Source: Vitis vinifera (lineage: Eukaryota > Streptophyta > Magnoliopsida > Vitales > Vitaceae). Taken from it: a stretch of DNA of 64,000 bases. The DNA is taken from the NCBI RefSeq assembly GCF_030704535.1, contig NC_081807.1:3389001-3453000 (forward strand). Reading direction: 5' to 3'. The notes below the pieces were generated by a model that searched no databases, was not told the origin of the DNA, and was given only the letters and a program-made list of their open reading frames with translations. Numbering within the stretch: position 1 is the first letter of the stretch; every line of letters starts with the position of its first letter. Shown here in pieces: positions 5,690-63,240 of the stretch. Both the position numbers and the translations under genes were made by a program.

Positions 5690-6195
5690 TGGTCAACCAC
5701 AAGTTGAGCCAAGACATGTGACGCGTACCACCGCCCGTGCCATGACGTGTGCCACGGGGCCTTACTTGGTGCCCACAAGTCGAGTCAAGACACGTGATGC
5801 GTGCCACCGCCCGTGCCATGAAGCGTGTCACGGGGCCTTGCATAGTGCCCACGAGCCGAGCCAAGACATGTGAGCCACCGGTGCCATGACACGTGCCATG
5901 AGGCCTTGCATGATGCCCACGAGTTGAGCCAAGACACGTGACGCGTGCCACCACCCGTGCCATGACACGTGCCACGGGGCCTTGCATGGTGCGCACAAGT
6001 CGAGTCAAGACACATGACACGTGCCACGAGGCCTTGCTTGGTGCCCACGAGCAGAGCCAAGACACGTCACATATGCCACCGCCTGTGCTATGACGTGTGT
6101 CACGAGGCTTTGCTTGATGCCCACAAGCCGAGCCAAGACACGTCACGCGTGTCACCGCCCGTGCCATGACGCATGTCACGAGGCCTTGCTTGGTT
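5690..6195. repeat. CpG-rich minisatellite, ~75-bp unit, six to seven copies
   Basis: A GC-rich island in AT-rich surroundings, built of imperfect head-to-tail copies of a unit of about 75 bp (CCACCGCCCGTGCCATGAC, then GGGGCCTTGC, GCCCACGAG, GAGCCAAGACACGTGACGCG). Five perfect CACGTG hexamers occur at 5791, 5890, 5935, 5966 and 6018. Open frames across it on both strands are translation of the repeat and not proteins. A transposable-element internal repeat is a possible source, but no ends were recognised. Confidence 0.85.
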
Positions 6196-30659: not shown

Positions 30660-31095
30660 CTTCTCTTTATTCAATGACTTCCCTTGAAAGTATTATTTGA
30701 TGATCTCCTATCAGGGGGTTGGTCTCTTTCTTATCTTCTCTTCTTTTTAAATAGTCCATTACCTTATCATGCAATTCTTTAAATGAGATAGCAGTATCAC
30801 AAGCTCTCACAACAACAGTGGTCTCTTTGTATTTTGAACCTAATTCATTGAGAGTGTAAACCACCAGATCATCATTGTGCAAGAGTGAACTAATAATAGT
30901 AAGTTCATCAACAATACTTTCGAAGATTTGGATGTATTCACTAATAGTTTTTTGTTCTTTGATCGTTTTTATAGCCTTTCCCATGAGGTTAGGATGCATG
31001 ACCTTGAGTAATTGGCATTAAGTTTTTTTGGGTGAGACCATGACTCTAATGCCTTAGTAGCACAAACCACAAAACAAAAATAGACTCCAAACTAC
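30660..31095 (-). mobile_element. Copia gag fragment (fossil)
   Basis: The minus-strand reading shows the UBN2/Copia gag signature: TISEYIQIFESIVDELTII, then DDLVVYTLNELGSKYKE and ISFKELHDKVMDYL. It is a short broken relic; no LTRs or other domains were recognised next to it. Age undetermined, apparently old. Confidence 0.75.
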
Positions 31096-31099
31096 AATC

Positions 31100-32030
31100 T
31101 AACATGAGATGAAATAACAAATTATTTTAAGGTTAATTTTGTTGACTTTCCATGAGGTTTTGACTAAATATATTTAGTTCATATTAGTTTGAAATTTCAT
31201 CAAATACCTCCTCTACCCTTCTCACAAATTATTTCACTTACCTGTCTTCTAACTCAAAATAAAGGAAGTATTTGACGATATTTTAAATTTATAAAAACTA
31301 GGTATATTTAACCAAAACTTGAGGGAAAGTAAGTGAAATTAACCTAATTATCTTACTTTTAATATAGCCAATATTCCATATCTCGTATTGGTACTTTCCT
31401 TCTCCTTTCAAATTGTTGTAGAAGGGCAAAGATATGACCGTTGTTACATGTGCTAAATCATAGTAGTATATAAAGAAGCATGCGGAACTAAACTCTTCAC
31501 AATGGAAAGTTTTTAATCGTAGTTACATCACTACATCAATCAACTCTGTGGTGCTAATTTGGTAAAATGTCAAAAGACTTTGACCCATTAAAGGTAAAAA
31601 AGAATAAAAATAAAAATTTGTTGTAGCAATGGATACTCTAAAACCATAAATACAAAGAATTTATATAACCTATCACTCGTATTATTTTACATTGTATAAG
31701 TTTACAATAGAAATGATCGACTAAATATACATTGGTAATATTATAGCTTAGGGTCAAATGTCATGCGTTATGAATGTAAAGAAAAATTGAACTTGATGAT
31801 TTGGTTGAGCCTTTATTTGCCATTAATATATGCCTTTATGGACTGTCCACTGTAAATTCCTTTCACTCCTCTCATTGAAGAATGAAACTCCACACTTTAT
31901 TCAAGTTTAAAATGTTTTCTTGCATATTAAGGAGGAAATTAAAAAATAAATAAATAAATAAAGGAAAGGAAAATGATCCGTTAAAAAACTATATTATGAA
32001 TGTTAGATATCTTAAAAAACAAAAAAATAT
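31100..32030. other. AT-rich intergenic DNA, no gene seen
   Basis: No open frame with recognisable composition or domain; low-complexity A/T runs only. Confidence 0.5.
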
Positions 32031-32276
32031 ATATTTGTAGACCCCATTTTGGGGAGCTGTCATTTTTCTCACGTTTCCTTTCTTGCAGCTAGCTGTGGCC
32101 AAGTGTCACCATCTTGCATGGCCACGTGTCACTCCCGGATTAGTCAATATGGGATCAAAATAGTGGAATTGATGGACCCATCAGAGGAAGACACCTGGAA
32201 AGTGAAGAACATTCTGGAATCAGGGGAGCGTATCTTCTGTTATGGGAAGGTTGCCAGCTGCAGGAGTAGAGGAGTG

Positions 32277-32525
32277 GAGGCTGGTTGCTGCAGAGAGAGT
32301 GGAGGCTGGCAGAGGAGTGGAGGAGAGGTTTTGCTTTTGAAAAGGCCGTTAGAGATATTTTTAGGATGAGGCAGCGGCATTGAAGGGGAGAGTTTGGAGA
32401 GATTCTTGAGGAGCAAGCTAGATATTGAAAAGAGAGAACGAGACAGAGAGAGCTGCATTGAGAGGGAGGGATTTCTTTTAAGCTGAGGCTGGTTGCTGCA
32501 GAGAGAGTGGAGGCTGGCAGAGGAG
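32277..32525. repeat. perfect 41-bp direct repeat, 208 bp apart
   Basis: The sequence beginning GAGGCTGGTTGCTGCAGAG and ending GGCTGGCAGAGGAG occurs identically at 32,277-32,317 and 32,485-32,525, inside the purine-rich leader of the mosaic. Confidence 0.85.
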
Positions 32526-32529
32526 TTTT

Positions 32530-32617
32530 GGAGAGAAAGAGAAGGGTTTTTGGAGAGAAAGAGAAGGGGTTTTGGAGAGAAAGAGAAGGGTTTTTGGAGA
32601 GAAAGAGAAGGAGTTTT
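32530..32617. repeat. 22-bp minisatellite, four copies
   Basis: Unit GGAGAGAAAGAGAAGGGTTT plus TT starts at 32,530, 32,552, 32,574 and 32,596 with almost no divergence, pointing to recent slippage. Confidence 0.85.
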
Positions 32618-33789
32618 GGAGGGAACAGAGAGCTAGAGGGGGAGGAAAAACACTAGGAAGAAAAACAGAGAAATCAGAAGAGACGGTTTTGGGTAGAGGA
32701 GGTTATCAAGAACCAGAAGAAAAGGGCCTCCAGGTTCTTTTTGAGGGGTAAGTTTTCCACTGTGTTCTTGTTCTTTCTTTTTCTCTTCATATATTGTTGT
32801 TGAGATGCATTGTTGTTGATCTTTGGATGGGTTATACTCTGTTCTTCATGGTTGACTGCTCCCCTTTTGCTTCTGTTTATGGCTGAAAATTGATTTAAAT
32901 CCATTTTTACCTTCTTTGTGGCATTTTAAAGAAAGAAAAAGACCTTTTAATTCACCCATCTGCAAACCCACTAATGAAGAGGTGAAGCATAGTTCTTCAT
33001 GCTTCATCTCATTTTTCTTCCTCCATGGCTCTGTTTTTGCTACTTTTCTCTCTGCTCTTCGTGTTTGGACTTTCTTGGATATGAAGCCGTAATGGGGAGT
33101 GAGGCTATGGGATGACGAGACAGTGAGGGATTTGGACTCCTTGAATCCGTTTATCCTGTAAAGGCTACTAAGGGCTTGGTAGATCAATGTTTGAGCATAT
33201 GAACAGAGAGTGGTCTACACCGGGGATACCATTATTGCCAGTGATCCGTGTGGCAGAGGTTAGTGGGCTGTAGAGAGGGGATCCTTTCTGACGGAGCAAA
33301 GGAACAAGAGATGAATTCATGGGTTTTCTGAATTGTTTTCACTAAGAAGGAGTTCACCCAGTACTCTTAGGCCTAAGAAGCTCGGCATTTCTTTGCAAAC
33401 ATAAGAAGCACAGGCTGGAACTATGGAGGCCATAGGTTTTACATGGTAAAAAAGTGGGTTGACTGAGGAATTGAGAAAGAAATAAAGCAAGCAAAGCCGT
33501 CATCGAATGACGCCGGCGGCGAAGCGCCTCCACTTTGACTACGTCGTGCCCTCAGTTATCGACTCTAACCACCGCTTCTCTAGTCTACGCGTGTCGCCGG
33601 AAGACTTGACGCTGATCGTTTCTCTGCCTCTCTTTATTTTCGGCTCTGTCAGGGGTCGAAACTCATCCTCCGCTGGCGATTGCGACGAGTGTCTCTCCTA
33701 GCTTAAGCCTCACGATCAGCTTCGGCTGTTCCTGATCTGCCGTCACGCTTCCCATGCTCTATACATCAACACGCTGCTGGCATCCAGTC

Positions 33790-34205
33790 AGGCATGTCCT
33801 TGTATCGTGTTCCGCAGGGAATTCTGGGCCTGATCTGCTCACTGTGGTGAGTGTCGCGCCATGGATTTTAACTGATGGTGTCCCGACGATTGACAAGAAG
33901 TTTTCCGGTGGATGTGGTTCTTGGCGACGGAAGAATCTTCGGTGGTGTGTCTATGTACTTCGGCGATCCTCTAAAGGACACTAATCTCCCCATTAGTTTA
34001 CGCTGGTGACTGTGGAAGCAGATTCCGCTTCATCGGAAAACCCAATCCTTCTCAAGTGCCTGGAAAAGCAGTCATTTGTGATCGGAACTTCACCTCGGCG
34101 CCCAAAGTCGCAGCGTTCTCCAACTGGTTTAGACATCGACGAGAGACAAGTTGATTTTAATATAATTTCTGGCACGTCCATTGCATGTCCGTACGTGAGT
34201 GGAAA
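33790..34205 (+). pseudogene. subtilisin-like protease (SBT1-type) fragment, internally deleted
   Basis: In shifting plus-strand frames the sequence reads VLVSCSAGNSGPDLLTVVSV and [43 protein letters not shown] and APKVAAFS follow, then [18 protein letters not shown] around the catalytic Ser (GTS). These are landmarks of a plant subtilase in correct order, but with long internal stretches missing between them and frame changes. It is a dead fragment; the catalytic Asp/His region is not recognisable upstream. It is the first of three host gene pieces joined here. Confidence 0.8.
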
Positions 34206-34275
34206 TAGCGACTGTGGCAGTGTACCCAAACGGCTTCACCACTCTCAAGCATGATGCTCTGAGAGTTGAATTGAA

Positions 34276-34410
34276 ATGGAGGGGCGTTCTCATATTGCAA
34301 TTGTTGTTCCTAGAACTGATGAGTCAATCAGTAAATTGGTTCAGCAACCTCAGAAGTTAATAGATCTCCGTGAGGTTCGCGATATTACTCATATGCCATT
34401 TGCAGAAAGA
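34276..34410 (+). pseudogene. acetolactate synthase small-subunit-like fragment
   Basis: Plus-strand translation GRSHIAIVVPRTDESISKLV, then QKLIDLREVRDITHMPFAER, matches the ACT-domain segment of the plastid ALS/AHAS regulatory subunit, in which an ESI.KLV.QL.KL....EV.D.T..PF.ERELML pattern is expected. It covers about 45 codons and then stops matching. A gene scrap with no independent function. Confidence 0.65.
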
Positions 34411-34685
34411 GATGACTGAAGGGAAACGGGTTCCTCTGAATATTACTAAATTTGATTATGAATGTTTGAGAAAGACCGCTGACAGTCAAGCATATTAAGG
34501 GGATCCATATAAAGAATTGTGGGTGTCCTTTGTTGACCGAGTTGGTCTTAGTCACAGATATCCTCATCCATGGCTGCTGATATATCTCCTAATTCTTCTT
34601 GATGCTGCGGAAGATATTGTTGAAATAGGAAAAACTGGGTGGAGAGATCAATTGTTACTCTGATTTGATTTTGGATTGAAAAGGG

Positions 34686-35048
34686 ATGGGTTCATTCATG
34701 GAGCATGTTCTGCCAGGAACGCTGTTTCTAGCAGTGAGTTTGTGGCACATATGCAGCGCAGTGGTGAGATTTGTGATGAACCCAAAGGGGTTTCAGGTTC
34801 GGGTTTTGAACCCAGTGTCTGGTTTTGATGGAAGGCTTAGATACTTGGAGCTTTATGTGGTGGCAATCGGAGCTTTTATTGATATGTGCATAGAGTTTTT
34901 GTATTCAACTCATCTCAAGTTCTTTGTGAATGGGGTCTTGAACCCATCTCACACGAATGACTTTGAGCACTCTGGGATGCTTCTCATGTTCTTTATTTTC
35001 GGGGTCGTCGCCTTGTTCTCCCAGCAAACCGGGCTTGTTCAAAACTGA
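34686..35048 (+). pseudogene. DUF716/TMEM45-family membrane protein fragment, 120 aa
   Basis: The open frame starts MGSFMEHVLPGTLFLAVSLW, includes LRYLELYVVAIGAFIDMCIE and HTNDFEHSGMLLMFFIFGVV, and ends after ALFSQQTGLVQN. This matches the N-terminal half of plant DUF716 (TMEM45-like, TMV-response-related) proteins, which are about 280 aa with six to seven membrane spans. Two to three hydrophobic spans remain. The frame is intact from its normal start to a premature end, so a short transcript could be translated, but the context (adjacent to subtilase and ALS scraps) argues for captured sequence. Confidence 0.7.
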
Positions 35049-35049
35049 A

Positions 35050-36050
35050 TAACCAATGCTCAATAGCCTTCACATAGCTCCATTCTGCCCTCACATACTT
35101 CCAGCGCGTGACTTGTTTGAATGAGAGCGACTTTTATTGCCAAACAGTTACTTGGGGAACCGGTGACGTTACTCCTATTGCAGGATTGCTTGGCAAATCT
35201 CAATTCCAGATTCACTTAGGAGGGATCCTTGGCTGCTAATTGGAAGGCTTCAAGACAGAAGGAAGCGAAGAGTGATGATACCAGGGAAGTGACTCAATTA
35301 TCTACTCTACACTTGCCCGCTCATGGCCCCAAAATCTCAGAAGTGGTCAAGAAGTTGGAAGACTGCATGTTCTGAAATTGACCTAGCCTTTCAAATCGGG
35401 TTCCCTACATTGAAATAAGAAGCAGTAGCATGAGTTATCCTCCAGAATGGCTCTATTCTCTGCATGGTGCATGGCCACCTTTGGGCCACAGTGCCATTTC
35501 CCATTTCACCATCTCTAATTTTGAAAAATATTCTTTTAAATCCCATTCTTCAAATAATTTTCTAGATTTTAGTTTGTTTTAAAATAATTTCAAACTCGTC
35601 CACTTTTCATCTTTAGTTTCTTTTTCTTAGATTCCAAAAATCCATTTTTCCAATAAAATTTTGCTACCACTTTTCTTCCTAGCAAGCCATTTTCATATCT
35701 CTTCTGTTTTTTTTAAATTGTTTTGAAATAAGCAAGAATTAATTCCGTAATTCCGAATAATGGAATTTATGGAATTAATTCATGCTAAGATAAATGGGCT
35801 TTGGTGGGGGCCCAACATATGAGATTTTATGATTGATTGACTGATTGATTGATTCATTAGCTATATGTGATTGATTTATTCTGTTCCTTGGTATACACAT
35901 TATCCTTCTGTGTTTGTTCACTAACCCTGTTTCTGATAGCACGTTACGGCTCGTGGCCCCGGTACGCACTCTCTATACCTATTCTGTTTCTCATATGTGC
36001 ATAATTGATTCGAGTATTCATTGCTTTCCTCATCAATTGCCACATCAGCT
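35050..36050. other. unassigned tail of mosaic
   Basis: About 35,080-35,470 has coding-like composition (for example TREVTQLSTLHLPAHGPKIS on the plus strand) but no family recognised; it may be a fourth captured piece. From 35,500 on the sequence becomes AT-rich, with a short GATTGATT repeat near 35,831-35,855. Confidence 0.4.
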
Positions 36051-36430
36051 TCATTTTATTAGTAGAGACCCGATTTTAGGGACTTAGAGGGGTGCTATGG
36101 TCTTTACCGTACCTTCCCGATAAGTAACCTGACCCCCGAACCCGATCCGGTTTTTCGTAGATCACCTTTTCCAAATAAGGAGTCACACTTAGGGTTTTTC
36201 TTTCTTATTTTGTTTACCCTTTTAAAAATAAAACAAAAATACAGCTAAAATCGAGCTCGCCATTGAGTGGGAAACGCATTGAGATAGATCGAAATGCGGG
36301 GTCCACAACGCGTTCTTTTATTCTCTTTAGTTTTATAAAAAAGATGGTAAAAATGTAGTGATCTTCTTTTAGTTTCTGTTTTATAAGTGAGAGGGGACTA
36401 AGATAGTATTTATTTTTTGACTGAATATAA

Positions 36431-37260
36431 AAAATCAAAATATATACAAATTTACTTTAATTATATTGGACGATGTTAATAGGTTACTTTTAGCTAAATA
36501 AAAAAAAAATCAAAACCTTAGAAAAATATTTTAAGTTTTATTTACTCAAATCAATGTTTCCAAAAATATCCTTATTGTCAAAACTGACTTAAATGAAAAA
36601 TAAATAAAAAAATATAAGCAAAAAACAATTTAATAGTTTTTAAAAATATTATTAAATCATCATTTGGTTCCCTTTTATTCTGTCACTTTAATTCTTTAAA
36701 ACTAAATTTAATTCTTTTATAACAATAGAACATAGGGGCCTAAGGTTGGAAAATGACAATTTACCCTATTTGAAAAAAGAAAAATTATATATTCATTTCT
36801 AGCCAAAAACAACTTTATATGTAATTGTCATTTTTTATCAACCCCCACCGCTGATGCAAAAGCCTTAACCTTGAATGGAATTTTAATTTCAAAGACATTT
36901 AGCACATAGGATAAAAATTGTGCATTTCAATGATCAAAGCTTCATATCTTAAAAGGTAGGTAAATTTTAAAATTCAACTAAGTTATGTCTTCAAAAGACA
37001 ATATTTAATTGGATTCTTTCGAGGTGTCATAGAATTAGAAATATTTTTTGAATTATTATATTTTAAAAAATATATTTTTTTAAATTGCCTTACTTTGTTC
37101 AAAATGCCAAGAAGCAGGCATAGGAACTATAACAAAGCTCCATCTCTATTAGGGTACCAGAGAGGATGAATTGAAAAGGCTAGGAAAATCTAATTCCAGA
37201 AACTTCTACTTGCATAAGATACAGAGTGACTACAGAATATGCTCAATGGCATAGACAAGG
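36431..37260. other. AT-rich intergenic DNA, no gene seen
   Basis: Low-complexity A/T sequence. From about 37,140 it becomes homologous to the 3' flank of the other PCBER genes (TCCAGAAACTTCTACTTGCA). Confidence 0.5.
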
Positions 37261-54044: not shown

Positions 54045-55661
54045 ATGATTCTGGGCATATCAGTCGGAGAAATTTCCCCACAACACCATGATGTTGATGC
54101 AAAGAAACATGCAAAGAATGTTGTTTCTCCTAACTTAACAACGTGCCATGAATCTGTTCCTCGGCCTGGTCTCTCCGTGTACTGCTGCCCTCCAAAACCC
54201 GAATCAGAAGAGCCCTTCATCGATTTCCAGTTCCCCGATCCCTCCTCGCCTTTACGTCTGCGCCGGGCGGCCCATCTCGTTGATGATGACTACATAGCTA
54301 AGTACAGAAACGCCGTATCAATAATGAAATCCCTTCCTTATGATGATCCAAGGAGCTTCCTTAGCCAAGCGAACCTCCATTGTATTTACTGCACCGGCGC
54401 CTATAAGCAGAAAAACTCAGATATTCCTCTTCATGTCCACAGATCATGGCTGTTCTTTCCCTGGCACAGAATGATGCTCTACTTCCATGAGCGAATCCTC
54501 GGGAGTCTGATCGGAGATGACAGTTTTGCTTTGCCGTTTTGGAACTGGGACAACCCTGATGGCATGGTGATCCCTGAAATGTACGTGACTGGTTCATTAG
54601 TTGATACTGATCGGGAAAATTCTCATCTTCCACCCCAAGTTGTGGACTTGAACTACAATTTACAGGAGAAAGGATTGGGACCTGAGGAGCAGATAAAGAT
54701 CAACATGGCGCTGATGTATACCCAAATGGTATCAGGTGCGAAGACGACTGAACTCTTCATGGGTTGTCCTTATAAGGGAGGTGAGGGAGGCTTCTGTGAA
54801 GGACCCGGCACCATAGAGCTTGCACCTCATAATACATTACACGATTGGACCGGTACCGGTTTGAATCCTGGAAGGGAGGACATGGGCTCATTCTACTCTG
54901 CTGGAAGGGACCCCATCTTCTATGGACACCATGGGAATGTAGACCGTCTTTGGGAAGTTTGGAGGAGGCTCCAATGGGAGTACTACAATTCAGAGATCAC
55001 TGACACTGAATGGCTAGATTCTTACTTTTTCTTCCATGATGAGAAAAGGCAGCTTGTGAGGATCAAATTCCAGGATGTTGTCAACATAACAAGGCTCAGG
55101 TATGCTTATGAGGAGGTCGAGCTGCCATGGCTCAACGCCCGTCCTCGGCCTTCAGTCCCTCCCAAGATTGCCCGTGACATACTAAAAATGAGAGACCTTG
55201 ATCATGAGAACAACCAGGAACTTCCAAGCAGCCCCTTTTTATCAGCAGACTTTGGACCCCATGGTCGAACTCTGGACACCACCATAAGGGTAAAGGTCCA
55301 TAGGCCAAAGAAGCATAGGAGCAAGAAACAGAAAGATTTCAAAGAAGAAGAGGTCATGGTTGTGTATGGAATTGAGGTCAAGGAGGACAGTTATGTTAAG
55401 TTTGATGTGTATGTGAATGCAGTTGATGAGACATTAATGGTTGGTCCAGAGTTCAGAGAGTTTGCAGGGACCTTTGTTAACATTCCTATTGGTGTTTGGC
55501 CAGTAATGAGGAGGAAGAGTAATCTTAAATTGGGGATCTCAGAATTATTACAAGACTTGGAGGCAGATGAAGATGAGAGCATCTGGGTAACCTTGATACC
55601 AAGAGCTGAAGACTGTATGAATGTAACCATTGATGGGATTAGGATTGAATACATTGAATAA
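54045..55661 (+). CDS. PPO: polyphenol oxidase (catechol oxidase/tyrosinase family), 538 aa
   Basis: Type-3 copper enzyme oxidising phenols to quinones. Numbered from ATG 54,045, CuA ligands are His112 (LHCIYC), His132 (HVHRSW) and His141 (FPWHR), with thioether Cys116. CuB ligands are His262 and His266 (PHNTLHDWTG) and His296 (FYGHHGNVDRLW). Glu258 and Phe283 match the family's waterkeeper and gate positions. The PPO1_DWL (TEWLDSYFFFHDEKRQ) and KFDV (YVKFDVYVNAVDE) domains follow, so the enzyme is complete from the core to the C-terminus. No plastid transit peptide or Arg-Arg thylakoid signal is visible. The frame continues open to 53,997 without another ATG. A 13-codon frame at 54,007 (MAVVSMSSGISRT) overlaps the chosen start as ATGA. 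Either an upstream exon is missed, the N-terminus is frameshifted, or the protein is non-plastidic. Confidence 0.88.
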   Translation: MILGISVGEISPQHHDVDAKKHAKNVVSPNLTTCHESVPRPGLSVYCCPPKPESEEPFIDFQFPDPSSPLRLRRAAHLVDDDYIAKYRNAVSIMKSLPYDDPRSFLSQANLHCIYCTGAYKQKNSDIPLHVHRSWLFFPWHRMMLYFHERILGSLIGDDSFALPFWNWDNPDGMVIPEMYVTGSLVDTDRENSHLPPQVVDLNYNLQEKGLGPEEQIKINMALMYTQMVSGAKTTELFMGCPYKGGEGGFCEGPGTIELAPHNTLHDWTGTGLNPGREDMGSFYSAGRDPIFYGHHGNVDRLWEVWRRLQWEYYNSEITDTEWLDSYFFFHDEKRQLVRIKFQDVVNITRLRYAYEEVELPWLNARPRPSVPPKIARDILKMRDLDHENNQELPSSPFLSADFGPHGRTLDTTIRVKVHRPKKHRSKKQKDFKEEEVMVVYGIEVKEDSYVKFDVYVNAVDETLMVGPEFREFAGTFVNIPIGVWPVMRRKSNLKLGISELLQDLEADEDESIWVTLIPRAEDCMNVTIDGIRIEYIE

Positions 55662-56350
55662 GTGAACCTGATCTTGGGTTCAACTCCAAATAAAACTGTC
55701 AAAAATAATAGATTAGTTTTGGCTTTCATGGCAGTATATATTATTTGTTAGATACTGTTATTATACAAGCAGGCATCCACTGTAAAAGAATGCCATTTCA
55801 GATGTAAAATAACTTTCTGTTCAATTACAAGTCATGTAATGCAGTTTGGTCGGTGATAAAGCTAAGGGTGAGTCTGATAAAAAAATGAAAAGAATGATTG
55901 AAACAGCTAGCTTAGTTTTCTCATTAATTATGAAAAAAAAAAAAAGGAAAGAAAGAAAAGAAGAGAAAAAGAACTTTAAATATCCATTCAAGTAGGCTAG
56001 CTCTGGGGAAAATGCCTGAAATATTTATCAACTGGTTTCATTTTCATAGACTGTGAGACAAGTGGAACAAACAGTCAAAAGAGAAATGGAAATCTTGTAG
56101 TTTGATGCATTTACATGATAAGTTGTCAGCAAGCCAATAAGTTTTACTATTCCCTTCCAACGATCTCTCTGGAGAGTTGATTCATAGATTGTATCATTTT
56201 CCCAATTAATTCAGTGTTGCTGTCCATGGAAATTGGTGGCCTGCAAAAGACCCAGCAGCCATGAAATATCAGCTGGTGATTCATGGATTGGATGTGATTA
56301 GTTGTAGTGTGCATGCAATTAGTAATGCTTGAATTGTAAATGGGTTTGGT
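55225..56350 (+). repeat. PPO 3'-end duplication, copy 1 (partner 61,345-62,410)
   Basis: The last 430 bp of the PPO coding region and about 690 bp of 3' flank are repeated to the right of the Copia insertion (shared GCATCCACTGT, GAATGCCAT, TCAGTGTTG and CATGAAATATC phrases). Confidence 0.85.
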
Positions 56351-56499
56351 AGGGACTAATCCCCATCATTGTTATGCTGGGACCCGCATTAATAAAGAAA
56401 AGCTTGTCCTTGATTGTGGCATTGCTGAAGAGATTTCGATAGAAGGTTGATTCATCATTGTTATGCTGGGAACTGATTGTGGCATTGCCCTCGTGAGGC

Positions 56500-56874
56500 T
56501 GTTGGGCTTTGTGGAGCCTAGTTTTGTTTGATCCGATTTGATGACCCGACCCGAATAATATTGTATGGCTTTTTAATGGGAGATTTATTGAGACCTGTTG
56601 GGCTCATTTAGCCCATTGTGGAACCACCTTTTTAATTAGGGTTTTTTAGTGTGGTGGGGTTGTTGTTTTATATATATAGAGAGAATATTGTAACCGCCAG
56701 GTTGTACTCTATATTCTTCCCTGATAATAGTGATATCCCTGCAACTCTGTAGATGTAGGCAAATTGCCGAACCATGTAAATATTGTCTTGTGCATGTGAT
56801 TGTTTTTCTTTGGCGTGTGTTTTTCTCTAATTTTTTGTTTCTCACGGGTTGGGAATTCGGTTTAATTCCCTACA
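56500..56874 (+). repeat. Copia 5' LTR, 375 bp
   Basis: Begins TGTTGGGCTTTGTGGAGCC and ends TTAATTCCCTACA; contains a TATATATATAGAGAG promoter-like stretch. Confidence 0.95.
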
Positions 56875-59800
56875 ACTGGTATCAGAGCCTAGGGTTAGGT
56901 TTGAGTGGGAGCAATGGCAGAGGAAGCAGGAAAGGAGTCTGGAATAGAAAAGTTTGATGGCACAAACTTTGCGTATTGGAGGATGCAGATTGAAGATTAT
57001 TTCTATGGGAGGAAATTGCATCTGCCTCTTTTGGGGACAAAACCTGAGAGTATGAAGGCTGAGGAATGGGCGCTTCTTGACAGACAGGTTCTAAGAGTTA
57101 TTAGGTTAACTCTGTCTAGGTCTATTGCACACAATGTTGTAAAGGAGAAGACCACAGTAGATCTGATGAAGGCTTTGTCCGGTATGTATGAAAAGCCGTC
57201 TGCAAACAATAAGGTGCATCTGATGAAGAAATTGTTCAATTTGAAGATGGCAGAGATGCATCAGTAGCACAACATCTGAATGAATTTAATACAATCACAA
57301 ATCAATTGTCGTCTGTAGAAATTGATTTTGATGATGAGATTCGTGCTTTGATCGTCTTGGCTTCTTTGCCAAATAGTTGGGAGGCAATGAGGATGGCAGT
57401 AAGCAATTCTACTGGAAAGGAAAAGCTCAAGTACAATGATATACGAGATTTAATTCTGGCTGAGGAGATTCGCCGAAGAGATGCAGGTGAAACCTCAGGA
57501 TCTGGTTCTGCCCTAAATCTTGAGACAAGAGGTAGAGGTAATAACAGAAATTCAAATCAAGGTAGATCAAATTCCAGAAATTCTAATCAGAACAGAAGCA
57601 AATCTAGATCAGGCCAACAAGTACAATGCTGGAATTGTGGGAAAACAGGTCACTTTAAAAGGCAATGCAAAAGCCCTAAGAAGAAGAATGAAGATGATTC
57701 TGCTAATGCTGTAACAAAAGAGGTACAGGATGCATTACTTCTTGCAGTAGACAGTCCACTTGATGATTGGGTTTTGGATTCAGGAGCTTCGTTTCATACC
57801 ACTCCACACCGAGAAATCATACAGAATTATGTTGCAGGTGATTTTGGTAAGGTGTATTTGGCTGATGGTTTAGCCTTGGATGTTGTGGGTCTGGGAGATG
57901 TCCGGATATCGTTGCCCAATGGGTCTGTTTGGTTACTGGAGAAGGTTCGATATATTCCTGACCTGAGGAGGAATCTGATTTCTGTTGGACAACTTGATGA
58001 TGAAGGACATGCAATACTATTTGTTGGTGGTACTTGGAAGGTTACAAAGGGAGCTAGGGTATTAGCTCGTGGAAAGAAGACTGGCACTATGTATATGACC
58101 TCATGTCCAAGAGACACAATTGCAGTTGCTGATGCAAGTACTGATACAAGCCTATGACACCGCAGACTTGGTCACATGAGTGAGAAAGGGATGAAGATGT
58201 TGTTGTCAAAAGGAAAACTACCAGAATTGAAGTCCATTGATTTTGACATGTGTGAAAGTTGCATCTTAGGAAAGCAAAAAAAGGTGAACTTCTTGAAAAC
58301 TGGCAGGACACCGAAGGCTGAAAAATTGGAACTAGTACACACTGATTTGTGAGGGCCTTCTTCGGTTGCATCCCTAGGAGGTTCAAGGTACTACATCACC
58401 TTTATTGATGACTCAAGTAGAAAGGTATGAGTTTATTTTCTGAAAAATAAATCTGATGTATTTGTAACTTTTAAGAAGTGAAGGCCATGGTTGAGACAGA
58501 AACAGGTTTGAAAGTAAAATGTTTGAGGTCAGATAATGGAGGAGAGTACATAGATGGAGGATTCAGTGAGTATTGTGCTGCACAGGGAATTAGGATGGAG
58601 AAGACCATTCCTGGGACACCACAGCAGAATGGTGTGGTTGAGCGCATGAACAGAACTCTCAATGAGCGTGCTAGAAGTATGAGGTTGCATGCTGGACTAC
58701 CAAAAACTTTTTGGGCTGATGCTGTTAGCACTGCAGCTTACCTGATAAACCGAGGACCATCAGTTCCCATGGAGTTCAGACTTCCTGAGGAGGTTTGGAG
58801 CGGTAAAGACGTGAAGTTTTCACATTTAAAATTTTTGGTTGTATTTCTTATGTTCATATTGATTCTGATGCTCGTAGTAAACTTGATGCAAAGTCAAAAA
58901 TATGTTTTTTCATTGGCTATGGTGATGAGAAATTTGGCTATAGGTTTTGGGATGAACAAAACAGGAAAATCATCAGAAGTAGAAATGTGATATTTAATGA
59001 ACAGGTTATGTACAAAGACAGGTCATCTGTAGTGTCAGATGTTACAGAGATAGATCAAAAGAAATCTGAGTTTGTCAACTTAGATGAATTGACTGAAAGT
59101 ACTGTCCAAAAAGGGGGTGAAGAAGATAAGGAGAATGTAAATTCACAGGTAGATCTGAGTACACCTGTAGTTGAAGTTCGCAGATCTTCTAGGAACATTA
59201 GACCTCCGCAGCATTATTCACCTGTTTTAAATTATCTCCTGTTGACTGATGGTGGTGAGCCAGAGTGTTATGATGAAGCCTTGCAAGATGAGAATTCAAG
59301 CAAGTGGGAGTTAGCCATGAAGGATGAGATGGATTCCCTGTTGGGGAATCAGACATGGGAACTGACTGAATTGCCAGTAGGAAAGAAGGCTTTGCACAAC
59401 AAGTGGGTATACAGAATAAAGAATGAACATGATGGTAGCAAACGTTACAAGGCCAGATTAGTTGTTAAAGGGTTCCAGCAGAAGGAGGGCATTGACTACA
59501 CAGAGATATTTTCTCCAGTTGTGAAGATGTCAACAATTAGACTTGTACTTGGAATGGTGGCTGCAGAAAACTTACATCTTGAGCAGTTAGATGTGAAGAC
59601 AGCATTCCTTCATGGTGACTTGGAGGAAGACCTTTACATGATTCAGCCAGAAGGGTTCATTGTTCAGGGACAAGAGAATCTAGTCTACAAACTGAGAAAG
59701 AGCTTATATGACCTTAAACAAGCTCCTAGATAGTGGTACAAGAAGTTTGACAATTTTATGCATAGAATTGGGTTCAAGAGATGTGAAGCTTGTATGTTAA

Positions 59801-60889
59801 GTCCTTTGACAACTCTTACATCATATTACTGTTGTATGTGGATGATATGCTTATTGTAGGGTCTGACATTGAGAAGATTAATAATCTGAAGAAGCAATTG
59901 TCCAAACAGTTTGCAATGAAGGATTTGGGAGCTGCAAAGCAAATCCTTGGTATGAGAATCATTAGAGACAAGGCTAATGGTACATTGAAGCTTTCACAGT
60001 CAGAGTATGTGAAGAAAGTTCTCAGCAGGTTCAACATGAATGAAGCTAAACCAGTGAGCACACCCTTGGGTAGTCATTTCAAACTAAGCAAAGAACAGTC
60101 ACCAAAGACAGAAGAAGAAAGGGACCATATGAGCAAGGTGCCCTATGCCTCAGCTATTGGCAGCTTGATGTATGCTATGGTGTGTACAAGGCCAGACATT
60201 GCACATGCAGTGGGAGTTGTGAGCAGATTCATGAGTAGGCCTGGAAAGCAGTATTGGGAGGCAGTCAAGTGGATTTTAAGATATCTGAAGGGTTCATTAG
60301 ATACATGTCTTTGCTTCACAGGTGCAAGTTTGAAATTGCAGGGTTATGTAGATGCTGATTTTGCTGGTGATATTGATAGTAGAAAGAGTACTACTGGGTT
60401 TGTTTTTACTCTAGGTGGTACAACTATATCATGGGTTTCAAATCTACAGAAGATTGTTACTTTGTCTACCACAGAAGCTGAGTATGTTGTAGCAACTGAA
60501 GCTGGAAAGAAGATGATTTGGCTACATGGTTTCTTAGATGAATTGGGTAAGAAGCAGGAGATGGGCATTCTATACAGTGACAGTCAGAGTGCAATTTTTC
60601 TTGCCAAAAATTCGGCTTTTCATTCAAAGTCAAAGCATATACAAACAAAATACCACTTTATCCGTTATCTTGTTGAAGATAAACTAGTAATACTTGAGAA
60701 GATTTGTGGATCTAAGAACCCGGCAGACATATTGACTAAGGGTGTCACTATTGAGAAGTTGAAGCTGTGCGCAGCTTCAATTGGTCTTCTAGCTTGAGGA
60801 CAGGAGGATGAGTTGTGGGGATGAGGGATTGTTTCTTGGAGGATAGCGGTTTGATGTTGGTGATTGGACTAGTCTCCAAGTGGGAGATT

Positions 60890-61263
60890 TGTTGGGCTTT
60901 GTGGAGCCTAGTTTTGTTTGATCCGATTTGACGACCCGACCCGAATAATATTGCATGGCTTTTTAATGGGAGATTTATTGAGGCTTGTTGGGCTCGTTTA
61001 GCCCATTGTGGAACCACCTTTTTAATTAGGGTTTTTTAGTGTGGTGGGGTTGTTGTGTTATATATATAGAGAGAATATTGTAGCCGCCAGGTTGTACTCT
61101 GTATTCTTCCCTGATAATAGTGATATCCCTGCAACTCCGTGGATGTAGGCAAATTGCCGAACCACGTAAATATTGTCTTGTGCATGTGATTGTTTTTCTT
61201 TGGCGTGTGTTTTTCTCTAATTTTTGTTTCTCACGGGTTGGGAATTCGGTTTAATTCCCTACG
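60890..61263 (+). repeat. Copia 3' LTR, 374 bp
   Basis: Same sequence as the 5' LTR at about 97% identity, preceded by the purine tract and followed by the target duplication. Confidence 0.95.
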
Positions 61264-61340: not shown

Positions 61341-61779
61341 GTTGATCAACCCTTCCAAGCAGCCTCATTGTATCAGCAGCCTTTGGACCCCATGGTCAAA
61401 CTCTGAACACCACCATAAGAGTAAAGGTCCATAGGCCACAGAAGCATAGGAGCAAGAAACAGAAAGATTTCAAAGAAGAAGAGGTCATGGTTGTGTATGA
61501 ATTGAGGTCAAGGAGGACATTTATGTTAAGTTTGATGTGTTTGTGAATGCAGTACTTAATGAGACATCAAAGGTTGCTCCAGAGTTCATAGCGTTTGCAG
61601 GGACCTTTGTTAGCCTTCCTCATGGTGTTTGGCTGGTAATGAGGAAGAGTAGTCTCAAATTAGGGATCTCTGAATTATTACAAGACTTGGAGGCAGACGA
61701 AGATGAGAGCATCTGGGTAACCTTGGTACCAAGGTTCAACTGTATGAATATAACCATCGATGGGATTAAGATTGAGTGA
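61341..61779 (+). pseudogene. polyphenol oxidase 3'-end pseudogene fragment
   Basis: Homologous to codons from about 55,225 to the stop of the PPO gene. It retains KFDV-domain coding (FVNAVLNETSKVAPEFIAFA, LGISELLQDLEADEDESIWV) and a family-like end (TIDGIKIE). Both copper sites are absent. An in-frame stop lies early (AAACTCTGAACACC against CTCTGGACACC), and one base is missing near 61,499 (GTGTATGAATTG against GTGTATGGAATTG), so the copy is dead. The 3' flank is duplicated along with it. Confidence 0.9.
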
Positions 61780-62429
61780 AGCTGATCCTGGGTTCAACTC
61801 CAAATAAAACTGCCAGAAATAATAGACTGGTTGTGGCTTTCATGGCAGTATATGTTATTTGTTAGATACTGCTATTATACAAGCAGGCATCCACTGTCAA
61901 AGAATGCCATCTCAGATGTAAAATAGTTTTGTTTCATTAGAAGTCATGTAATGCTGTTAGATTGGTGATAAAGTTAAGGTTGAGTTTGATCTAAAAAATG
62001 GTAAGAATGATTGATGCCGCTGCTTTGTTTTCCCTTGAATCATGAAAAAGAAAAAGAACGGGGTAACTCTGGGGAATATGTCTGAAATATTTAGCAACCG
62101 ATTTCATTTTCATAGACTGATGCATGACAAACGTCAATTTTGACATTGAATGTACGTTAGGGATTTGAAAGGTTCCAACTTCCAAGTGGTTGATACGTTG
62201 CCAACTAGCTATCAAGTTTTACTATTCCCTTTTAACATTCTCTCTGGAGAGTTGTATCGTTTTCTTAATTAATTCAGTGTTGTTGTCCATGGAAATTGGT
62301 GAGCCTGCGAATGGCCCATCAGCCATGAAATATCTGTTGGTGCATGATTCTTGGATTGGATTGGATGTGAGTAGTTGTAGCGTGTATGCAGTTAGTAATG
62401 CTTGAATTTTAAAAGGGTTTGGTAGAGAA

Positions 62430-63240
62430 TATTGCATTAATGATCCCACAGCTATTATTGTGATACTCCCTTGAAGAAAAAGTTTTTGAAAAAATTTATG
62501 CATATATTTCTTTTAACCATGTAGATGCATTTAAAGTTATAAAAGTTTATTGAGTTCAACACCGATAATATCTATACAGAAGGGAGAGTTGATCCGAACT
62601 CTAGTGTGAGAGTTTGTTTGGTCTCGTCATCCATGTAAACTCTGTTATCTCTACATAGGGTGTGGGTCACTTTTAAAGCCAAGTGTAGACTCATCAAACT
62701 CACAATGGACGATATCTATAGGGAAGAGAGTGGATTGTTATGGTTTTTATTCTTGATTATGGTACCATTTTGCTCAACCTCCATCGGAAGGCATCTGAAA
62801 TCATACAGACAGGGCGGTAGAAGGTTAATCTTGATTTCTTCTGGGTAATGAACTGAATTCACCCATTATTCAATGAATGGGCACATGTCTCCTCCACCAT
62901 CTACTTCATCTTAGCCTCTGTTACGCAGGTAAAAAATAAGATGTGTACAGCATGTGGGCCAACATAATACTGCAGGCAGATGTTGTTCTTTCATACTAAA
63001 GTATGCACATAGTCATAAATCTTATTCACACTGTACCTCATCCATGTCACTTGTCTTTTATCTACTTTATCAGAACAAGACATTCATATTGCCCTTTTAT
63101 TATTAAGTGAAGAAGATCAACGTGTACAACCAAATAAAATTTTCTATTGAATTACAAAGAATAGTTTATCAATTACAGAGACAATTCCTTAGATTCTGAA
63201 GTCCAAATTAATCAAACAATCAGTTGACAAATCCTGTGTT
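62430..63240. other. intergenic between PPO fragment and pectinesterase
   Basis: No gene seen. About 62,515-62,600 (ACCGATAATATCTATACA) resembles 63,570-63,640 within the pectinesterase intron (ACCGATAATATTTACATA) and weakly 63,850-63,900, indicating a dispersed repeat. Confidence 0.5.

Follow-up and report, generated by a model that had tools for sequence, protein, structure and literature searches.

In a 64,000-nucleotide stretch of Vitis vinifera DNA (NC_081807.1, positions 3,389,001 to 3,453,000; hereafter the window), truncated pieces resembling separate host genes lie next to one another in a spacer, and the locus raises the question of what these pieces are and what brought them together. 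A preliminary description, made from the letters alone, had proposed a mosaic of subtilase, acetolactate synthase (ALS) small-subunit and DUF716 fragments within a mobile element of unclear type. The features considered below are collected in Table 1.

Table 1. Features of the mosaic and its surroundings (positions are those of the window)
Feature	Position	Strand	Basis or remark
Copia gag fragment	30667-31017	minus	Pfam, E 6.8e-10
AAAATATATA, left copy of 10-bp direct repeat	32024..32033	+	right copy 36437-36446, perfect match, simple AT sequence
Left edge, TGTAGACCCC	32036..32045	+	sole exact + strand copy in the window
Purine-rich leader	32160..32745	+	70% purine
51-bp repeat in leader, 94%	32277-32327 and 32485-32535	+	repeat comparison
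22-bp tandem array in leader, 5 copies	32521-32631	+	tandem repeat scan
GGGGTAAGT, 5' splice-site-like motif at leader end	32745..32753	+	putative splice donor
GC- and CpG-rich block just 5' of subtilase fragment	33501..33780	+	composition; Pfam without match
Subtilase fragment, two internal deletions and four small frame changes	33793..34261	+	stitched-frame query against solved structures
Subtilase parts in changing frames	33793-33909, 33908-33997, 33993-34085, 34078-34095, 34098-34127, 34123-34203, 34208-34261	+	frame reading
First internal deletion junction of subtilase fragment	34078..34085	+	bases common to ICDR end (one frame) and VIGTS start (another)
ALS small-subunit fragment (ACT region)	34279..34410	+	6u9h match; Pfam ACT_5 below cut-off
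Open frame with one stop	34412..34660	+	no convincing match
N-terminal part of probable DUF716/TMEM45 protein	34686..35045	+	ATG-started open frame, 120 codons
Right edge, GGGGTCCACA	36298..36307	+	inverted copy of left edge, one mismatch

Identity of the gene fragments

The subtilase query was stitched from several frames of the fragment rather than taken from one open frame, and its best solved match was 7eox_A ('Protease'; E 9.9e-33), with further matches to cucumisin (3vta, E 3.2e-15) and to the subtilisin-like protease 3i6s (E 1.3e-5); an earlier, shorter query had given E 2.8e-26. The first stretch is strong when taken alone (7eox 202-300, i-E 2.2e-25), and the later ones are weak alone (within 356-383, i-E 80; within 400-445, i-E 0.0079) and collinear, the cucumisin alignment placing the first and last stretches in the same order. 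Approximately 70 and 32 residues are absent between the stretches in the printed 7eox alignment, and the part at 34208-34261, which lies outside this alignment, was assigned by eye. Pfam searches of the subtilase pieces returned no peptidase domain; a weak match to Volactin (E 0.1) was seen at 33872-34009. Both deletions fall where two frames have a few bases in common, and the first junction may represent a short microhomology. Such shared bases are expected of template jumps, and end joining gives the same. The decay of the subtilase piece argues against a working chimeric protein.

The ALS piece matched 6u9h_F (acetolactate synthase small subunit 2, chloroplastic) over residues 356-402 of 491 with E 1.3e-17, and Pfam ACT_5 was found at E 0.0051, which is under the family cut-off. 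When inspected by eye, none of the borders of this piece appeared intron-like, and no paper describing the introns of the grapevine gene for the ALS regulatory subunit was found in the open-licence literature. The open frame that follows is a possible additional captured piece: no Pfam family was detected in it or in the neighbouring stretches, and a comparison with the PDB gave three weak bacterial-type matches, the best with E 0.55.

The third recognised piece is probably of the DUF716/TMEM45 family, a name that leans partly on relatives we presume it to have. Residues 6-108 of the query aligned with residues 3-102 of TMEM45A (7oqz) at E 0.46, and a query shortened from this piece matched TMEM45A only, in an N-terminal alignment (E 1.2). 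CusA chains ranked above TMEM45A for the full piece (E 0.0056); these were judged unrelated, and a CusA identity was rejected. The later part of the piece, searched alone, matched nothing, Pfam gave no match to the piece, and its single-sequence fold was poor (pLDDT 59.9, pTM 0.36). Of the recognised pieces, none but this one keeps a long open frame. A transcript of it could be translated, and the product, if expressed, would be a transposon-derived, truncated membrane protein. Four small frame changes were counted by eye in the 469 bp of subtilase sequence versus none in the 711 bp of the ALS piece, unmatched frame and DUF716 piece together (one-sided p 0.025), an asymmetry that hints at a difference in age or upkeep among the pieces and is too weak to support a claim.

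All recognised pieces lie on the + strand within 1.3 kb, in the head-to-tail, single-orientation layout that had been described. Of the three proposed genes, subtilase and the ALS small subunit are borne out by structure matches, while DUF716 is only probable at E 0.46. A single misassembled gene region is an unlikely source of the pieces, since they belong to unrelated protein families and no N occurs in the window. The joining of unrelated families on one strand is best read as proposed earlier, with a mobile element capturing fragments of several host genes. The mosaic looks like what remains of such an element, carrying broken parts of no fewer than two, and probably three, host genes unrelated to one another.

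Leader, composition and edges of the unit

The purine-rich leader with small repeats that had been noted upstream of the pieces is real; its purine fraction of 0.70 is the highest of the stretches scanned, compared with a mean of 0.51 (sd 0.05) across the window in 586-bp segments moved by 50-bp steps, the peak starting near 32150, and it carries both the 22-bp array and the 51-bp repeat. The leader frame gave a weak Pfam match to eRF1_1 (E 0.26-0.28), which was judged unrelated. Since every piece has the same sense as the leader and the splice-donor-like GGGGTAAGT, an RNA driven from the leader would be a sense chimera. It had been suggested that transcripts of the mosaic might act against the three host genes; this does not follow from pieces in the sense orientation, and silencing of the parents would require double-stranded RNA made from the sense chimera, or antisense transcription.

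The 3' part had been described as GC-rich, and this was found to be wrong: 35501-36500 has 0.25-0.38 GC, and the GC-rich part of the unit is 33501-34250 (0.50-0.56), with 0.56 GC and a CpG observed/expected ratio of 1.37 at 33501-33750. Over 33501-34250 this ratio is 0.82-1.37 versus 0.47 window-wide, which is unusual for an old methylated transposon. A 56-bp near-palindrome (79%) lies at 35731-35786, also within the 3' part.

At the left edge, 32036, GC steps from 0.29 to 0.42. TGTAGACCCC and GGGGTCCACA form a 9/10 inverted match of the TG...CA form of LTRs. GGGGTCTACA with at most one mismatch has three sites in the window (both ends and 33210) versus 1.75 expected; the motif alone is thus unremarkable, and is notable only for its position at both edges. 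Placement of the right edge at 36307 is uncertain, and the end at 36430 given in the preliminary description has no support over it; the outer stretch, 36308-36436, has 0.26 GC and a composition like that of the flank. The block at 36060-36307 looks to us like a type of 3' LTR end that is frequent in plants. The AAAATATATA repeat outside these edges is a possible target duplication, not clearly over chance, as 11% of the 18,745 random pairs with similar composition that were compared match over at least 10 bp.

Structural tests of element type

No LTR pair was detected when the first and last 900 bp of the unit were aligned locally (scores 26 direct and 24 inverted; the best of 60 shuffles reached 29 in the direct and the best of another 60 reached 28 in the inverted orientation); the self-comparison of the window does recover the LTR pair of its Copia element. 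A search over 36200-36600 for exact target duplications of 4-6 bp at TG/CA ends found none, and with one mismatch allowed there were two candidates, ending at 36448 and 36553, neither at 36307. An initiator-Met primer-binding site was not found in the unit by a search that, as a positive control, finds the one at 56877; short TGG patterns match at 33876, at 33922 and at 34931. As for a polypurine tract, the long purine runs among those listed are found at 32928 and otherwise within or upstream of the leader.

Long terminal inverted repeats were lacking at 32036/36307 (inverted score 24, shuffle maximum 28) and at 32034/36436 (score 18, shuffle maximum 23), and the self-comparison contained no edge-to-edge pair. 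A strict scan of both strands over 31500-37000 for the Helitron 3' hairpin with CTRR-T gave no match, and a looser scan gave 12 and 11 matches window-wide, none of them at 35300-37100 (+) or 31500-32300 (-). A single A^TC occurs in 31990-32080, at 32010, inside the AT-rich flank. A CACTA element was rejected, the terminal motif being missing from edges that read TGTAGACCCC and GGGGTCCACA.

These tests of LTR pair, target duplication, Helitron 3' end and terminal inverted repeats thus single out no one element type, in keeping with the preliminary description. Self-comparison showed no second copy of the mosaic within the window, and no clear paralogue elsewhere in the window of the spacer round the insert that could serve as an empty site. 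Of exact DNA patterns from both ends, three had 0 matches in viral_contigs and one had 0 matches in genome_contigs, which are virus/prokaryote collections and carry little weight here; the same little weight attaches to blastn, which found no sister copy in plasmids (551-base query) or phages (4275-base query). A pattern from the DUF716 piece hit two stretches in viral_contigs, neither of them a confirmed relative.

Origin of the mosaic

Our tentative preference is that the mosaic is a decayed remnant of a non-autonomous mobile element with copies of host-gene fragments, most likely a Bs1-like LTR-type retroelement. Such an element would have taken in pieces of host mRNA through template switching in reverse transcription, or capture may alternatively have occurred by DNA-level copying, and recombination or a deletion at the flank, for instance, may afterwards have removed the standard structure of the retroelement. 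The short TG/CA ends and the presumed LTR-like look of the 3' block favour a broken LTR-type retroelement. The mosaic works like maize Bs1, yet it is not filed here as an LTR retrotransposon, and it is probably now without function.

LTRs as long as this unit do occur singly in plants, which speaks for such an origin: in the available part of PMC4029996, Del LTRs measure 1143 to 4831 bp. Two comparisons count against the LTR-type retroelement, besides the missing LTR pair, exact target duplication, initiator-Met primer-binding site and second copy in the window. In PMC4029996 the Del LTRs near 4 kb come from grasses, the mean for the grapevine/poplar subgroup is 2187 bp and the means of five eudicot Del subgroups are 1190-3737 bp; on these figures 4.27 kb would be a long LTR among eudicot Del elements. 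The Del start given in that part, TGTAACACCC, is unlike the start of this unit. Furthermore, among 425 LTR elements of maize with gene fragments, not one contained two or more standard genes under the conditions of that survey (PMC2774510, available part), so that multi-gene capture seems rare in LTR elements.

The fragments could instead have been transduplicated by a Mutator-like element without terminal inverted repeats (TIRs), spanning 32034-36436 with the perfect 10-bp AAAATATATA repeat as its target duplication; we consider this unlikely. Multi-gene capture is common in Pack-MULEs, which suits such an origin, yet the repeat is simple AT sequence with the chance frequency given above, the outer stretch 36308-36436 has the GC content of flanking DNA, and the inverted TG/CA ends are left unexplained. 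According to the available part of PMC2528002, grapevine MULEs do transduplicate gene pieces and 40% of those reported are without TIRs; their target duplications, where found, are 9 nt, which is at odds with a duplication of 10 bp.

A Helitron that captured several genes, its ends since decayed or lost, is rather improbable: the hairpin with CTRR-T was absent near the edges in both the strict and the looser scan, and the lone A^TC lies outside the unit in AT-rich flank. In favour of this origin, Helitrons are expected to leave no target duplication. They also account for most of the maize captures counted in the available part of PMC2774510 (1194, versus 462 for other DNA transposons and at least 189 for LTR elements).

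A non-mobile origin, in which filler DNA from several genes was joined at a chromosome break beside unrelated LTR debris, is comparably improbable. The lack of a target duplication and of intact element structure would fit it, as would the microhomology at the subtilase deletions, which suits end joining equally well; it sits poorly with the pieces being enclosed by inverted ends that match each other and by a leader of extreme purine content, and with all three pieces lying on one strand. Finally, a eudicot counterpart of Bs1, a non-autonomous LTR-ended unit that took up three to four unrelated host mRNAs serially and whose short membrane-protein frame, the DUF716 piece, has been kept open by selection, is highly doubtful.

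Relation to known systems

That plant mobile elements capture gene fragments is already known, and Helitrons and Pack-MULEs are well-known cases in which one element took up several genes. The review PMC13317346 covers such capture by retroelements of plants, among them Bs1 with three genes, and by Pack-type elements. In its available part, Bs1 is described as uniting segments from three unrelated host genes, each of them incomplete, and the mosaic probably does the same. Bs1 differs in being a recognised LTR retroelement whose chimeric gene is reported to be transcribed and translated; in the mosaic no LTR pair was found. The class II transduplicators of grapevine (Benjak et al. 2008, PMC2528002, available part) resemble the mosaic in carrying host gene pieces within transposons of several superfamilies in a eudicot, but these families are defined by transposases and partly by TIRs and short target duplications, none of which is shown in the mosaic. 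Host gene fragments also occur in LTR retrotransposons, in maize (PMC2774510) as well as in rice and sorghum (PMC3726574); as far as the available parts of these papers go, the mosaic differs from those elements in holding at least two genes. Among the matches listed for open-licence papers, none dealt with this mosaic by title, and the titles listed for the end motifs look unrelated. If sister copies prove LTR ends, the mosaic would stand beside Bs1; otherwise it would be one more decayed capture.

Setting in the window

The gene content of the window is that of plant DNA. The mosaic, 32036-36307, sits in a spacer near the Copia gag fragment, and a 216-bp stretch at 31130-31345 matches its own reverse complement at 68%, resembling a decayed MITE. 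A tandem array of diverged units occupies 2386-43903, the units being approximately 69-91% alike in self-comparison; Pfam placed an NmrA domain in both minus-strand frames tested from the array, which we take to be isoflavone-reductase-like. Syntaxin and polyphenol oxidase genes were also recognised by Pfam, the best solved relative of the latter being 6els. Rfam at the gathering threshold and a tRNA scan gave no matches in the whole window.

The Copia element lies at 56500-61262, with LTRs at 56500-56873 and 60890-61262 (374 bp, 96.8% identical in self-comparison), an initiator-Met primer-binding site at 56877 adjoining the LTR, and several open gag-pol-like frames. It is flanked by 55221-56358 and 61352-62431, which are 79% similar to each other; since 55221-56358 overlaps the polyphenol oxidase gene at its end, 61352-62431 may be part of a duplicate. 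GC-rich tandem repeats with a unit of approximately 76 bp are present at 5697-6194.
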